Assembly (NCBI RefSeq): GCF_003151135.1
Contig: NZ_QEQK01000008.1
Location: 105,280-169,279 of the forward strand
DNA length: 64,000 nucleotides
Direction of reading: 5' to 3'
Source: Abyssibacter profundi
Lineage (GTDB): Bacteria > Pseudomonadota > Gammaproteobacteria > Nevskiales > OUC007
Part shown: one piece after another, positions 16,949 to 22,216 of the stretch
How positions within the stretch are numbered: the stretch's first letter is position 1
How the letters are laid out: every line of letters starts with the position of its first letter
The notes under the pieces: generated by a model
What the model was told of the DNA's origin: nothing
What the model saw: the letters and a program-made list of their open reading frames with translations, nothing else
The model's database searches: none
Translations under genes and position numbers: made by a program

Positions 16949-19900
16949 CTACTTGCCCAACGGGGTGGGACGCATGATCTCGTAGCCCTGCATCAAATCG
17001 ACGCCGATCTCGCTCAGTATCGGGATGAGATCTGCCGTCTCGACGTGCTCGGCAATCGTGATCAGCTTGAACTCGTGGCCCACTCGGTTGATGACTTCTA
17101 CCATGGTGCGATCAACATGGTTCGCCGCCATCTGCCGCACGAAAGTGCCATCGATCTTGATGTACTGCACGGGTAGATTCTTGAGATAGGCGAACGACGA
17201 CATGCCCGCACCGAAGTCGTCCAGCGCGAACTTCACCCCCAGCTCGCTAAGACTCGAGACCAGGCGCGCAGTCTCGGGCAGATGAGCAATGGCTGCGGTT
17301 TCGGTGATTTCGATACAGAACCGCTCGCCCGGAATCTTGTAGTGCTTAAGCCGTTCGCGCACGTACTCGACGAATGACCGATCGCCGATAGTTTGTCCCG
17401 ATACGTTGACCGCGGTCACCGGCGGCGAAGACTTAAGATGCTCGGCCAAGAACTTCAGGGCATTGTCGATGACCCAGCGGTCCAGCGAGCCGGTCAGGAA
17501 ATACCGCTCCGCCGCTGGAATGAACTGATCCGGTGTCATCAACTTGCCGTCTTCATCGCGCATGCGCACCAATAGCTCGCGATACGCGACCTGCTTTCGG
17601 TCATCGACCTGGACCAGATCTTCGTAGACCAGCTCGCAGCGATTCTCTTCGATGGCACTGGAGATGCGCGAGACACGATGCATCTCACCGTGTCGACGCG
17701 ACATCTCGGCGTCGTCGTTGCCGGAGACATAAAGCCGGTTCCGGCCCTCTTCCTTGGCCATGAAACAGGCGGCGTCGGCCTGGGTCATGACAGCGGCCAC
17801 CGACTCGCTGTGCTTGTGCAATTCGGTTAAACCAATGCTGACCGTGATCTGGTAGGTCTTGCCCTGCCACTCGAATCGAAACTCTCGAATCGCCTCCAGC
17901 GCCTGCTCCAGAATGGGCTTGCCCGCTTCCAGTTCACAGTGGTCGAGGATGATGCCGAACTCGTCACCGCCGAGCCGGGCCAGCGTATCCGACCGACGTA
18001 GCTTGCATCGGATAAGCACCGCGAGCTGACGCAGCAACTCGTCGCCAGCCGCGTGCCCGCAGGTGTCGTTAATGACCTTGAACTGGTCCAAATCCGCGAA
18101 CGCCACCACATGCTGCGCGGCTTCGGCATGGCTCTCGATGAACGCCGCCTTGAGTCGGCGCTCGAACTCGTCCCGATTCGTCAGCCCGGTCAGCGCATCA
18201 TGCCGGGCTCGGAAAGACAGCTCTTCAGCCAACAGGCGCTGTTCCGTGACATCACGCATCACCACAACCGCACCAATCATCTCGCCGTCGCTGACCACCA
18301 GTGGCTTGCAGGAGATGTCGGCGAACACCCGCCGGTTATCGGGATGCTGGATGTAGTACTCGTTACCGTAATACTCGACCGGTGCCTGCGACTCCAACGC
18401 CTTGCGGACCGGGTTCTCGGCGCTCTCCTCACCCTCGACACTACGGAGTTCGAACAAGGCCTCAACCGGCATGTTCATCAACGCGTCCTCGGCCTTGCCG
18501 ACCAGGCGTTCGACCATGGGATTGACGTAGGTGATGCGGCCATCCGCGTTGGTGCTGACCACGGCATCGCCGATGGCCCCCAGCGTCACATCCGCCCGCT
18601 GCTTCTCATCAGCCAGGTCGGCAAGCACACGCTCCATGACCTCGCGAGACCGGGCATTTCGCAAGGAGATGGTGACGAGTTCGCCGGCGGCCGTGAGGCT
18701 GTCGAGATCCTGCTCGCTCAGTCTGGCCACGCCCTCGCCTTCCAGCGTCAGCGCGCCCGCCTGGGCGCCATCGATGCGCACCGTGACATCGACCCGCGCA
18801 TGAATCTTGTCTTTCTTCAGGCGTTTGGCAAGATCGTGATAAGGCCCTGAGGTGTCCAGAGACTGAGCCACGACGGTCCGGCCGCCCGACAAAACGGCGT
18901 CGCGCAGCTCAGGCGCGAGTTCAAGGTCCAGCTTGCGCGGGGACTTGCGGGTTGACGCCGGCCGCTGGGACCGGGTCACCAGGTGGCGGTCTTCCAGCAG
19001 CCCGAACGAGACCGTCACGTCATCGTAGGTCTCCGATAGCAACTCCAGCAGACCATCAATAATCTCCTGGGTGTGGTGACGATTGGCGATGCGCGACGAC
19101 AGGCCGTGTAGCAGGCCCAGGCGACGGTTCTCACCTGCAACGCGTTCATCGTCCTGCTTGCGCGTGTTGATGTCGCGCAAGTGCATGACGTAACGGGCCT
19201 CATCCCCTGTGCCGCGAATGCTACCCAGCGCCATTTCTGCCCAGCGCTGCTCGCCGTTGTGCCCCTGGTACTGGACCTCTAGCTGCGCGCTGGACTGACG
19301 CGCCTCGCGGATGTCAGCGGCCTCGCGCTGCACGGCCGAGAAGCTCTCTCCGCCCAGCATCGACGACAACGGTTTGCCCTCTTCCACCAAGGCCGGCACC
19401 TCGACCATGTCACGCAGGGCCTGGTTCACGTCCCGCATGACGAAATCGCTGTCAAGAATTGCCTGGCCGATCGGGCTGCTGGTGAACGAGGCACGGTGGC
19501 GGGCCTCGCTTAGCTGCACGCGGCGATCCGCTTCACGCTGGTCGGTCACGTCAATGCAGGTGAGCACGACGCCGTCGACATCGCCATTGGAGCGAATATA
19601 GGCCACCGACCGCAGCTGAAAGACCCGGTTGTCAGCGGAGGTAATCGGGCGTTCGAAGGGTTCGCGCGACTTCATGACATGGCGGAACCGTGGCAGCAGG
19701 CTCTCCATGTCGATGTTCCAGTCAACGCTAATAACCGAAACACCGGGCTCCAGGTGATCCTGGGCCAGCTGGCGTTCGGTCGCTGAATTGTAGTGCGTGA
19801 CATGCAGACGCCGATCCAGCACCAGCAGCGGGTAGTCCAGGCTGTTCTTGACGTTGGCCAGATCCGAAGCCATCGCCTCCAGCTCACCCGACTTGTTCTG

Positions 19901-22216
19901 AAGCTCGTCGTTGACGGTCATCAGCTCTTCGTTGGTCGACTGCAGTTCCTCGTTCGAGGTCTGCAACTCTTCGTTGGTCGACTGCAACTCTTCGTTGGCG
20001 GACTGCAGCTCTTCGGACTGCGACTGCAGCTCCTCGTTGGATGTTTCCAGCTCTTCAACGACCGTCTGCAGGTGCTGGCGTGTGCTGGCCAGTTCACGCT
20101 CCAACTCGGCAATGATCAGGTTGTCACGCTGATCCTTGTCATCGAAGGCCAGCGCTTCGGTGGCCGGAACCGCGGCGGTCTCGAATGACAGCGCCACATA
20201 ATCGGGTTGATCAATCATCATCGGCCGGACCACCGGCACGATGCGACGTCGGTCTACACCTTCGCCCAGATGGAACACCGTGCCCTTGGCCACGGTGCGT
20301 TCACGCCGGCAGCGGTGCAGCAGCGCACGCAATTCCGGTCTGAACGGGTCTGCGACCAGGTCGTAGATCCGCAGGTCAGCCGGCCCCTGCGGGAACTTCA
20401 GGAAGGGGTGTAAATCGCCAGAGAAGTGAACCGTATTGTCCTGATTGTCGATCACCACCGTCGGCGGGCAGTACTCGTTAATCAGCAGGTTCGTGAAGCG
20501 CAGGCTGAGCGAGCTGAGCTCACGGCCGCGACGCTGACGTCCGCCCCCTTCCTTCTCCTGAGTGGCCTCTTCGGGGAAGCGCTTCGGAATGACCGGCACG
20601 TAGTTCGGCGTGGACGCATCCTTGCGCTGGAAAACACGGCCTTTCTTGTTCAGCGTCGAGAAGAGGTCACGATGCAGCTCGATGGATTCGGAGCTCCCCA
20701 GAAACAACAATCCACCGGCGCGCATGGCGTAGTGGAAGGTGAGCAGCACGCGCTTTTGAATCTCACGATTGAAGTAGATCAGCAGATTGCGGCAGCTGAT
20801 CAGATCAACACGGGAAAAGGGCGGATCCTCGACCACGTTCTGTGAAGCAAAAACCATGTTCTGCCGCAGGAATTTCTTGACCTGGTAGGTCCGTCCCTGG
20901 CGTTCGAAATAGCGGCTGCGCAGCTGGTCGGGCACGCCCTCGACCGAGGTTTCCGGGAACACACCGGTCCGGGCAAAGGTGACCGCGTCTTCGTCCAGAT
21001 CCGTGGCAAAAATCAGATATTCCGGCGTATTCGACTGATGCCGCGACAACTCCGACAACAGGATGGCGATGGTGTAAGCCTCTTCGCCGGTTGCGCAGCC
21101 CGGTACCCAGACCCGGAAGACATCGTCGGCCTGCTTGGTCTCCCAGACCGACCGCAAGGATTCGGCCAGGGCCTGGAATGCATCCGGATCCCGGAAAAAC
21201 GATGTGACCGAGATGAGTACATCGCGCGCCAGCAGCCCGGCTTCCTCCGAATCTGTCCGGACCAGCTCGGCGTAGTCTTCCAGGCTATGCGCCTTGCGCA
21301 GACCCATGCGGCGATGGATACGCCGGTTGATGGTGGAAGGCTTGTAGTGGCTCAGGTCAAACCCTGTCGCCCGACGGACCGATGACGAGATACGTCCGTA
21401 CGCATTGCTGTCGTTGTCTTCCGGCAACACGCGGCGCAGCGCAGCCGGCGTGGATGCCAGCCCCTCCAGCGCCTCGCCCATCTTGTGGGCGACCATGACC
21501 ATATCGACCGCCCCGGTCTGAATAGCCGCGCGCGGCATGCCATCAAACTTGGCGGTACTGGGGTCCTGCACGATGGTCACGCCACCGGCGGCCTTGATCG
21601 CACGTATACCCGCAGAGCCATCCGATCCCGTGCCCGAGAGGATGATGCCGACGGTGTTCTCGCCCAAAGAATCCGCAAGAGACCGGAAGAATGCGTCCAC
21701 CGAAGGCTTGGGCCCCACGCTGGCCTTGGGGGTCGACAGCCGCAAGACGCCATCACGCAACAACACATCGTGATTCGGCGGCGTGACGTAAATCGTATTC
21801 GGTGCCGGAGCCTGACCATCGGTTAGGTCACAGACCGCCAGGTCCGTGCCGGGTCGCAGTAGTTCCCGCAGCAAGCTGGTATGGGTGGGCGAAAGATGCT
21901 GAGCGATCACGTAGCTCAGGCTGCGGCTTTGGGGGAGTTCGGACAGCAGTTCTTTGAGAGCTTCCAATCCGCCCGCGGAGGCCCCGATCCCCACCACAAT
22001 AACGGCGCCTTCGTCGGCTCCCGGCAGCGGACTTTCGGTCTCCAGCGCATCACCGTCGATGACCAGACCCTGACCGCTCTCCACGGCGGCTTCGTCCGCC
22101 GCGGTCATCGCAGTGAGTTCACCCTCCTCGACCGGCTCTGGCTTGGCCTCGGATACTGCCTTCGAATCGTTTTTGTTCGACGCGCGACGCGTATTGCCGC
22201 TGCCCTTTTTCGTCAT
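16949..22216 (-). CDS. CheB-CheR-PAS-GGDEF-EAL hybrid signalling protein, 1755 aa
   Basis: A single soluble chain joins chemotaxis and cyclic-di-GMP modules. In order: an acidic N terminus (about 1-70); a CheB methylesterase with the Ser, His and Asp sites (G-A-S-A-G-G, A-Q-H-L-S-P, G-T-G-S-D-G); a CheR methyltransferase with V-P-G-C-A-T-G-E-E-A-Y and C-R-N-L-L-I-Y-F; a heptad coiled coil built of repeated N-E-E-L-Q-S units; several PAS/GAF-like sensors; a GGDEF domain with an intact R-L-G-G-D-E-F; and an EAL domain. The EAL motif reads Y-R-E-L-L, but D-D-F-G, K-I-D-G, A-E-H-V-E and Q-G-Y are kept, so phosphodiesterase activity is plausible. CheB/CheR-PAS fusions are known; the added GGDEF-EAL makes this one unusually long. 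No transmembrane segment is visible. A -10-like GATAAT lies about 57 bases upstream of the start (22273-22278). Confidence 0.93.
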   Translation of the reverse strand: MTKKGSGNTRRASNKNDSKAVSEAKPEPVEEGELTAMTAADEAAVESGQGLVIDGDALETESPLPGADEGAVIVVGIGASAGGLEALKELLSELPQSRSLSYVIAQHLSPTHTSLLRELLRPGTDLAVCDLTDGQAPAPNTIYVTPPNHDVLLRDGVLRLSTPKASVGPKPSVDAFFRSLADSLGENTVGIILSGTGSDGSAGIRAIKAAGGVTIVQDPSTAKFDGMPRAAIQTGAVDMVMVAHKMGEALEGLASTPAALRRVLPEDNDSNAYGRISSSVRRATGFDLSHYKPSTINRRIHRRMGLRKAHSLEDYAELVRTDSEEAGLLARDVLISVTSFFRDPDAFQALAESLRSVWETKQADDVFRVWVPGCATGEEAYTIAILLSELSRHQSNTPEYLIFATDLDEDAVTFARTGVFPETSVEGVPDQLRSRYFERQGRTYQVKKFLRQNMVFASQNVVEDPPFSRVDLISCRNLLIYFNREIQKRVLLTFHYAMRAGGLLFLGSSESIELHRDLFSTLNKKGRVFQRKDASTPNYVPVIPKRFPEEATQEKEGGGRQRRGRELSSLSLRFTNLLINEYCPPTVVIDNQDNTVHFSGDLHPFLKFPQGPADLRIYDLVADPFRPELRALLHRCRRERTVAKGTVFHLGEGVDRRRIVPVVRPMMIDQPDYVALSFETAAVPATEALAFDDKDQRDNLIIAELERELASTRQHLQTVVEELETSNEELQSQSEELQSANEELQSTNEELQTSNEELQSTNEELMTVNDELQNKSGELEAMASDLANVKNSLDYPLLVLDRRLHVTHYNSATERQLAQDHLEPGVSVISVDWNIDMESLLPRFRHVMKSREPFERPITSADNRVFQLRSVAYIRSNGDVDGVVLTCIDVTDQREADRRVQLSEARHRASFTSSPIGQAILDSDFVMRDVNQALRDMVEVPALVEEGKPLSSMLGGESFSAVQREAADIREARQSSAQLEVQYQGHNGEQRWAEMALGSIRGTGDEARYVMHLRDINTRKQDDERVAGENRRLGLLHGLSSRIANRHHTQEIIDGLLELLSETYDDVTVSFGLLEDRHLVTRSQRPASTRKSPRKLDLELAPELRDAVLSGGRTVVAQSLDTSGPYHDLAKRLKKDKIHARVDVTVRIDGAQAGALTLEGEGVARLSEQDLDSLTAAGELVTISLRNARSREVMERVLADLADEKQRADVTLGAIGDAVVSTNADGRITYVNPMVERLVGKAEDALMNMPVEALFELRSVEGEESAENPVRKALESQAPVEYYGNEYYIQHPDNRRVFADISCKPLVVSDGEMIGAVVVMRDVTEQRLLAEELSFRARHDALTGLTNRDEFERRLKAAFIESHAEAAQHVVAFADLDQFKVINDTCGHAAGDELLRQLAVLIRCKLRRSDTLARLGGDEFGIILDHCELEAGKPILEQALEAIREFRFEWQGKTYQITVSIGLTELHKHSESVAAVMTQADAACFMAKEEGRNRLYVSGNDDAEMSRRHGEMHRVSRISSAIEENRCELVYEDLVQVDDRKQVAYRELLVRMRDEDGKLMTPDQFIPAAERYFLTGSLDRWVIDNALKFLAEHLKSSPPVTAVNVSGQTIGDRSFVEYVRERLKHYKIPGERFCIEITETAAIAHLPETARLVSSLSELGVKFALDDFGAGMSSFAYLKNLPVQYIKIDGTFVRQMAANHVDRTMVEVINRVGHEFKLITIAEHVETADLIPILSEIGVDLMQGYEIMRPTPLGK

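Follow-up and report, generated by a model that had tools for sequence, protein, structure and literature searches.

A protein that carries a CheB methylesterase and a CheR methyltransferase in the same chain as a GGDEF and an EAL domain raises the question of what these two enzymes modify. It is encoded in a 64,000-nucleotide stretch of the Abyssibacter profundi genome (the window; contig NZ_QEQK01000008.1, positions 105,280 to 169,279), where its gene forms one intact frame on the minus strand, 16949..22216, with its ATG at 22216 and a product of 1,755 amino acids; the plus strand across the same stretch contains 18 stops. Three PAS domains are recognised in the protein, and an additional PAS-like domain (residues 564-680) is placed between CheR and a long helix, hereafter the coil. 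The features, in window coordinates, are as follows.

16949..22216, minus strand: whole gene, CheB-CheR-PAS-like-coil-PAS_10-PAS-GAF-PAS-GGDEF-EAL (open reading frame, Pfam/NCBIfam, synteny)
21467..21994, minus strand: CheB methylesterase domain, residues 75-250, with S80, H107 and D199 and no receiver domain found (Pfam and alignment)
21251..21400, minus strand: CheR_N, the N-terminal all-alpha domain, residues 273-322 (Pfam)
20645..21208, minus strand: CheR SAM-binding methyltransferase domain, residues 337-524, with R342, D406, R476, N477 and Y481 (Pfam and alignment)
20177..20527, minus strand: putative PAS-like alpha/beta domain, residues 564-680, negative in Pfam (predicted secondary structure alone)
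19841..20137, minus strand: coil, a single predicted helix of 99 residues, residues 694-792 (two AlphaFold2 models)
19913..20038, minus strand: six heptads with Glu-Glu at b,c, residues 727-768, proposed methyl-accepting sites (alignment and heptad register)
19544..19858, minus strand: PAS_10, residues 787-891 (Pfam; PAS fold, Z 14.6 against 3kx0)
19145..19510, minus strand: PAS (sensory_box), about residues 903-1024 (Pfam and NCBIfam)
18662..19069, minus strand: weak GAF_2-like domain, residues 1050-1185, below the Pfam cut-off (Pfam)
18236..18577, minus strand: PAS adjoining GGDEF, residues 1214-1327 (Pfam)
17735..18208, minus strand: GGDEF domain, residues 1337-1494, with GGDEF at 1416-1420 and RxxD at 1407-1410 (Pfam and motif reading)
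16967..17668, minus strand: EAL domain, residues 1517-1750, with E1547 in ELL and the remaining catalytic motifs kept (Pfam and alignment)

The first-pass annotation of this DNA had given the order CheB, CheR, coil, PAS, GGDEF, EAL, which stands except for its single PAS, in whose place there are three recognised PAS domains, the PAS-like domain and a weak GAF. A Pfam scan of the window protein gave no match to the MCPsignal domain (PF00015) and no receiver domain adjoining the fused CheB. The maximum mean Kyte–Doolittle hydropathy in a 19-residue window is 1.40, indicating no transmembrane segment by hydropathy, as had been stated. The claim that the gene lacks chemotaxis neighbours likewise holds for CheB and CheR, for which there is no further match among the frames of at least 80 codons in the 64-kb window; the CheR, CheB and MCP-signal places of the same genome lie on contigs other than that of the window gene. 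On balance, these features and the properties of the coil described below indicate that the window protein is probably a cytoplasmic c-di-GMP enzyme with an in-built methyl-adaptation cassette, in which glutamates of the coil would be methylated by its own CheR and demethylated by its own CheB.

The frame is genuine, since two orthologues keep both the frame and its neighbours. These full-length orthologues (a contig-wide genome search with the full-length protein as query; two loci only) are 81-83% identical over residues 1-1753 and occur in two related genomes, an uncultured member of the Salinisphaerales (L023) and an Abyssibacter sp. (L024). Flanking genes are common to the window locus and both orthologue loci and, judged by sequence type, are presumably mfd, a CsiV-like gene, mtnP, hpt and mscS. 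The identical frame and neighbours rule out a misassembly or the joining of two genes, the objection that had been raised against the annotation itself, and the single frame of 1,755 residues from CheB to EAL is thus confirmed by the open-reading-frame call, by Pfam and by orthologues in two genomes.

All four enzyme domains have their catalytic motifs. CheB residues S80, H107 and D199 align with those of the solved Salmonella CheB, and the CheR motifs align with CheR of B. subtilis, P. aeruginosa and Salmonella, so that CheB and CheR stand in a single chain with every tested catalytic motif residue in place, as the first-pass annotation had read them. An AlphaFold2 model of residues 60-900 matches 5ftw with a Z score of 30.6. 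Across the family R342, R476, N477 and Y481 rank among the most conserved columns. The GGDEF domain is canonical in both its GGDEF and RxxD motifs, as described, and the EAL domain contains E1547, N1604, E1636, D1666/D1667, K1687, E1723 and Q1743; the roles of the listed residues in the four domains are those generally assigned to them. The reading of the EAL motif as ELL with the other catalytic motifs kept is borne out by alignment with RbdA (PA0861), which aligns ELL to ELL and rules out that ELL is a damaged EAL. The proper alignments thus reveal no loss of the CheB or EAL residues, the other outcome that had been named as fatal to the annotation.

The architecture is not singular, and the suggested search for relatives with the same architecture was successful (L002, L023 and L024 among them). 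The A. profundi genome itself encodes three more proteins with the CheB-CheR front end: L002, of 1,715 amino acids and with the architecture of the window protein by Pfam; L003; and L004/L006, whose 1,485-codon open frame matches the query in its front end and its GGDEF-EAL part. L003 (1354-3882; 843 amino acids) is a CheB-CheR-coil protein in which Pfam finds CheB and CheR only and nothing after the coil. Front-end relatives were found in at least 43 of 369 sampled genomes of the class (E<=1e-80) and at least 86 of 398 of the phylum (E<=1e-50), both counts being lower bounds because scoring covered the two or three best candidates of each genome, and they also occur on plasmids of Sinorhizobium, Deinococcus and Spirosoma. 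A simple motif proved too crude for classifying outputs and was replaced by Pfam on 20 hand-chosen, hence non-random, relatives, of which five end in HisKA, four in an HWE kinase, three in GGDEF-EAL and eight in PAS only. The front end has the appearance of a portable cassette. CheB-CheR fusions of another kind (L117, L118, L119 and L120) end at or soon after CheR and have neither coil nor output.

The coil connects this front end to the remainder of the protein. Residues 694-792 are predicted as one helix, with the PAS-like domain before it and PAS_10 after it, in both AlphaFold2 models, which were built from alignments of 87 and 84 sequences and have a mean pLDDT of 86.9 and 88.5, respectively. 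In the structure-match list of the first model, CheR, CheB and further methyltransferases took up all the places, and in that of the second PAS_10 matches did, so that the latter provides no test of the PAS-like domain at 564-680. Within the helix, residues 727-768 comprise six heptads of the type N-E-E-L-Q-S-T, with Asn at a (Ser once), Glu-Glu at b,c and Leu at d, and contain 12 acidic and no basic residues. The second Glu of each pair, at position c, is E729, E736, E743, E750, E757 or E764. Chemoreceptor adaptation sites are described by the consensus [ASTG][ASTG]xx[EQ][EQ]xx[ASTG][ASTG], in which typically the second residue of the pair, at heptad position c, is methylated, according to the accessible text of PMC6829392. 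The coil has [EQ][EQ] pairs at b,c with a small residue at +4/+5; the full 10-residue consensus is absent from the window protein between residues 691 and 795 and present in just 8 of 128 related coils. In an MCP of the same genome (L220) such pairs also lie seven apart, at frame positions 468, 475 and 482.

Conservation across relatives singles out the glutamate pairs. Catalytic motifs were tabulated for 146 proteins, after removal of duplicates (L001, L006, L011, L023-L025 and L121), identical rows and the separate CheR of L075-L077; 129 of the 146 have coil columns (L013, L017, L019, L073 and L119 were removed by name), and a 128-coil set lacks, in addition, the degenerate coil of L080. The mean share of the top residue in the 129 coils is 0.96 at position b and 0.97 at c, compared with 0.84 at both a and d, 0.72 at f, 0.62 at e and 0.49 at g, so that the b,c Glu columns are conserved above the coil core and on a par with catalytic residues. 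Of the 763 columns, 18 have zero entropy, and these include E742, E743 and E756 as well as R342, D406, R476 and N477; the invariance of S80, Y481 and E743 is imposed in the identity alignment (A1), which required them of all members except the hand-added L002 and L009, but these letters were not required in the motif table or in the 129- and 128-coil sets.

The 12 pair columns of the 128 coils hold 1,494 letters, comprising 1,466 Glu, 10 Ala, 9 Gln, 5 Asp, 2 Gly, 1 Thr and 1 Arg, and Gln is thus rare (0.6%). Asp makes up 0.34% of Asp plus Glu at these columns; elsewhere in this helix, 13 further columns led by Glu give 8.75% (Fisher p 7e-30, for sequences that are not independent). Asp should be tolerated if mere negative charge is required, but not if Glu itself is needed, either as substrate or to form the helix. 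With its position -4 omitted, the published motif has one or more matches in each of the 128 coils, and residues 720-770 give 392 matches, compared with 22.5 on average (sd 4.5) after 200 shuffles, although this null takes no account of the common descent of the repeats. Exactly one whole heptad, 749-755, is absent from 9 of 58 proteins (counted without the duplicates L001, L006 and L023-L025 and the truncated or broken L041 and L071-L074), and chemoreceptor classes are defined by heptad number in the accessible text of PMC2577667. A chance Glu-rich repeat is ruled out by conservation between proteins that are 31-46% identical to the front end of the window protein (94% for L009, of the same genus) and by its occurrence in three phyla, since Pseudomonadota, Deinococcota and Bacteroidota, at least, have Glu-pair coils.

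Such coils accompany CheR. Among frames of at least 200 codons in the loci, noncoding frames included, four or more in-phase Glu pairs occur in 134 of 163 CheR frames versus 13 of 1,243 others. Three of these 13 are the second halves of CheB-CheR genes interrupted by a stop codon (L041), a frame change (L073) or an intervening 537-codon frame (L114). In L114 (1219-6001) the frame that splits the CheB-CheR-coil gene is presumably of transposase type, as judged from its sequence. The remaining ten frames represent seven distinct histidine kinases; five of these have CheR and CheB as neighbours, and the other two belong to one genome (G235). A separate-gene version is also present in A. profundi (L076, 2324-9554, contig C15), in which a hybrid kinase of 1,501 amino acids is followed by CheR, a receiver-less CheB and a REC-PAS-GGDEF-like gene; the kinase was identified by Pfam and CheR and CheB by profile. 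The coil of this kinase is rich in Glu pairs. Counted in the 115 residues before HisKA, EE/EQ/QE pairs number 9-13 in kinases of this type with a CheR gene nearby (n=9) versus 4-9 in those with none nearby (n=13; p 7e-5; L219, which has no kinase, left out). EE alone also separates the two groups (p 8e-4) and the stricter EExx[AST] does not (p 0.06), all these p values ignoring kinship.

The two G235 kinases with at least four in-phase pairs have no CheR beside them in the flanks fetched. In G235 and in a second genome, G091, a CheR 46-47% identical to the L076 CheR lies on another contig (E 5.5e-81 and 4.7e-79), and the best match in the other nine genomes searched with the L076 CheR has E 1.2e-37 and 35% identity. 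This after-the-fact observation fits CheR acting in trans. The two CheR genes, at L237 7820-8701 (G235) and L238 8815-9690 (G091), have no CheB match near them in the stretch fetched, and the Glu-pair kinases of both genomes are on contigs other than theirs. The 10-kb contig of L237 contains no kinase of the L076 type, and in L238 a kinase of this type without a Glu-pair coil lies ~3.5 kb off on the opposite strand.

Relatives in which CheB or CheR is broken provide natural experiments. L080 (1,634 amino acids; same order) has the same architecture and the same GGDEF-EAL output. It has no CheB domain, there is no CheB match among frames of at least 200 codons in its 9.5-kb locus, and the Tyr481 of its CheR is replaced by Asp. 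At the six pairs of the window protein its coil reads KE, DA, EE, EA, ET and ER, so that Glu is kept at two of six c positions and four of six b positions, with a hydrophobic residue at five of six d positions. This degenerate coil is one protein from one genome. A search with the L080 front end in 85 genomes of the order gave matches in 23, and of the newly matched coils those that were read (L172-L177) include none that is degenerate. Where CheB is a separate adjoining gene (L069/L121), CheR and the coil retain the Glu pairs. Tyr481 is replaced in 4 of the 146 proteins (L080, L013, L017 and L019), all with 0 or 1 pairs; the last three have no such coil at all, so that a degenerated coil is found only in L080 among them. 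In L013, L017 and L019, of the same order, the active-site Tyr of a CheR-like part is replaced by G, D and T, the PAS-GGDEF-EAL end matches, CheB gives no match above threshold and a Glu-pair coil is lacking; these are candidate pseudo-methyltransferases.

The pairs do not follow CheB in the same way. Asp199 is replaced by N, N, Y, E, Y and G in L102, L154, L031, L037, L068 and L027, respectively, L068 also lacking the CheB Ser, and all six keep 5-6 Glu pairs, which leaves a strict co-loss of CheB and the pairs unsupported. The LSGT motif is largely kept beside the replaced Asp, and methylation in these relatives is perhaps write-only. In L067 the CheB motifs are unrecognisable and four of six pairs are kept. 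In this sample, the Glu pairs go with the integrity of CheR and not with that of CheB.

We propose that the CheR of the window protein methylates, and its CheB demethylates, the second Glu (position c) of up to six coil pairs, acting either on their own chain or on the partner chain of a putative coiled-coil dimer. A methyl-accepting role for the coil is suggested by the b,c register, which is that of chemoreceptor sites, by the conservation of Glu, by its partial loss in L080 and by the association with CheR. Each methyl ester would remove one negative charge, up to six per chain, from a stretch with 12 acidic and no basic residues, and the coil between the PAS-type domains could then pack more tightly or shift its phase. 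The change would be passed through the PAS/GAF/PAS row to reset the RbdA-like GGDEF-EAL pair, and signal history and SAM supply would in this way govern the set-point of c-di-GMP turnover without CheA, CheW or an MCP. Feedback from CheA is unlikely, since no receiver domain was found beside CheB; the coil, through its own conformation, or the PAS/GAF inputs could provide it. The methylation, the sign of its effect and the dimer are inferred. The first-pass annotation had also coupled methylation chemistry to c-di-GMP, which fits the domain anatomy, but it proposed no substrate and took the coil for a spacer.

The glutamate pairs might instead serve a signalling helix or the docking of CheB and CheR and never be methylated, with the two enzymes acting elsewhere or sensing SAM, an explanation that we regard as unlikely but deserving of serious consideration. 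Long helices linking PAS domains are common as PAS signalling helices, and the coil is modelled as just such a long, confident helix between PAS-like and PAS domains; the retention of pairs in the six Asp199-replaced proteins and the unmatched full consensus point the same way. However, coil positions b and c face outward and are usually the most variable, and here their conservation exceeds that of the core. Moreover, the heptads offer no basic residue for pairing, Asp seldom replaces Glu, and separate kinases are richer in Glu pairs when they stand beside CheR genes, all of which argues against a purely structural role.

That the fused enzymes modify the MCPs of the same cell, thereby tying chemoreceptor methylation to c-di-GMP, appears improbable. 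The genome does have four MCP-signal places, and the CheB and CheR motifs are intact. However, the genome already contains three CheR-CheB pairs as separate genes, of which two lie near MCP-signal places, the fused CheB was found to have no adjoining receiver domain through which CheA could act, and the coil would be left unexplained. It is very improbable that CheB and CheR are dead and the protein a plain PAS-GGDEF-EAL phosphodiesterase: in L013, L017 and L019 the order does have examples of a vestigial CheR-like part, but every motif residue tested is intact in the window protein, and four of these, R342, R476, N477 and Y481, belong to the best conserved columns of the family.

In-chain methylation of the coil may be one instance of something wider. 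It is conceivable, if somewhat short of probable, that CheB-CheR-coil proteins and kinases with their own CheR and CheB together constitute methyl-accepting signalling outside chemoreceptors, in which a methyl-accepting coil has passed among kinases, bare sensors and GGDEF-EAL enzymes and forms, in the window protein, an in-chain adaptation loop for c-di-GMP. We hold this to be slightly less probable than we otherwise would because mutants in other genes of the P. putida cfc cluster keep the crinkle phenotype, according to the accessible text of PMC4951495. In the open-access papers that we searched we found neither a proposal of a methyl-accepting coil in CheB-CheR fusions nor a stated substrate of such fusions, and what the sequences suggest as new is reversible receptor-type methylation inside one non-chemoreceptor chain. 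If this is correct, adaptation by reversible methylation reaches beyond chemoreceptor arrays as a portable cassette for kinases and c-di-GMP enzymes, and it hints at the target of the non-chemotactic P. putida CheR/CheB pair CfcB/CfcC. The proposal pins down six named residues.

CheB-CheR fusions as such are already known, both by annotation and as the 'CheB-CheR hybrid' mentioned for Rhodospirillum centenum in the accessible text of PMC2890560. Those annotated as 'CheR family methyltransferase' or 'chemotaxis protein CheB', with or without a PAS-kinase end, share the CheB-CheR-coil-PAS_10 front, whereas the output of the window protein is GGDEF-EAL. The Cfc system of Pseudomonas putida (cfcABCDE) is a kinase cluster with CheR/CheB (CfcB/CfcC) and a hybrid kinase, CfcA, tied to c-di-GMP; it resembles the kinase-CheR-CheB row of L076 and differs from the window locus in that kinase, CheR and CheB are separate genes rather than one. 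In the accessible parts of PMC4951495, CfcA is needed for a diguanylate cyclase, a chemotaxis role of CfcB/CfcC is described as ruled out, and no substrate of the pair is named. Salmonella CheR is reported, in the accessible text of PMC8546571, to methylate consecutive Glu/Asp residues of PhoP, which is not a chemoreceptor, and this is a precedent for CheR acting on consecutive acidic residues of another kind of protein; unlike the window protein, PhoP is a response regulator with a separate CheR, no coil and no fused CheB.

For the output, the closest solved relative is RbdA of Pseudomonas aeruginosa, a PAS-GGDEF-EAL protein (5xgb/5xgd/5xge) whose solved part is without CheB, CheR and coil. 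Residues 1201-1754 of the window protein match residues 8-564 of the 568 solved (483-486 bits), ELL included, and have the same PAS-GGDEF-EAL order with the ELL/EAL and metal-site motifs. We take RbdA to be a phosphodiesterase, and the likeness suggests that the output of the window protein is phosphodiesterase activity at least in part. For the coil, the closest comparison is with the MCPs Tar, Tsr and TlpT. Unlike these, the window protein has no MCPsignal domain and no CheA/CheW part and carries the modifying enzymes in its own chain, and its coil has Gln at position -4 and hardly any Gln at the pairs. What the coil shares with them is Glu pairs at heptad positions b,c placed seven residues apart, a small residue at +4 and often at +5, and change in length by whole heptads.
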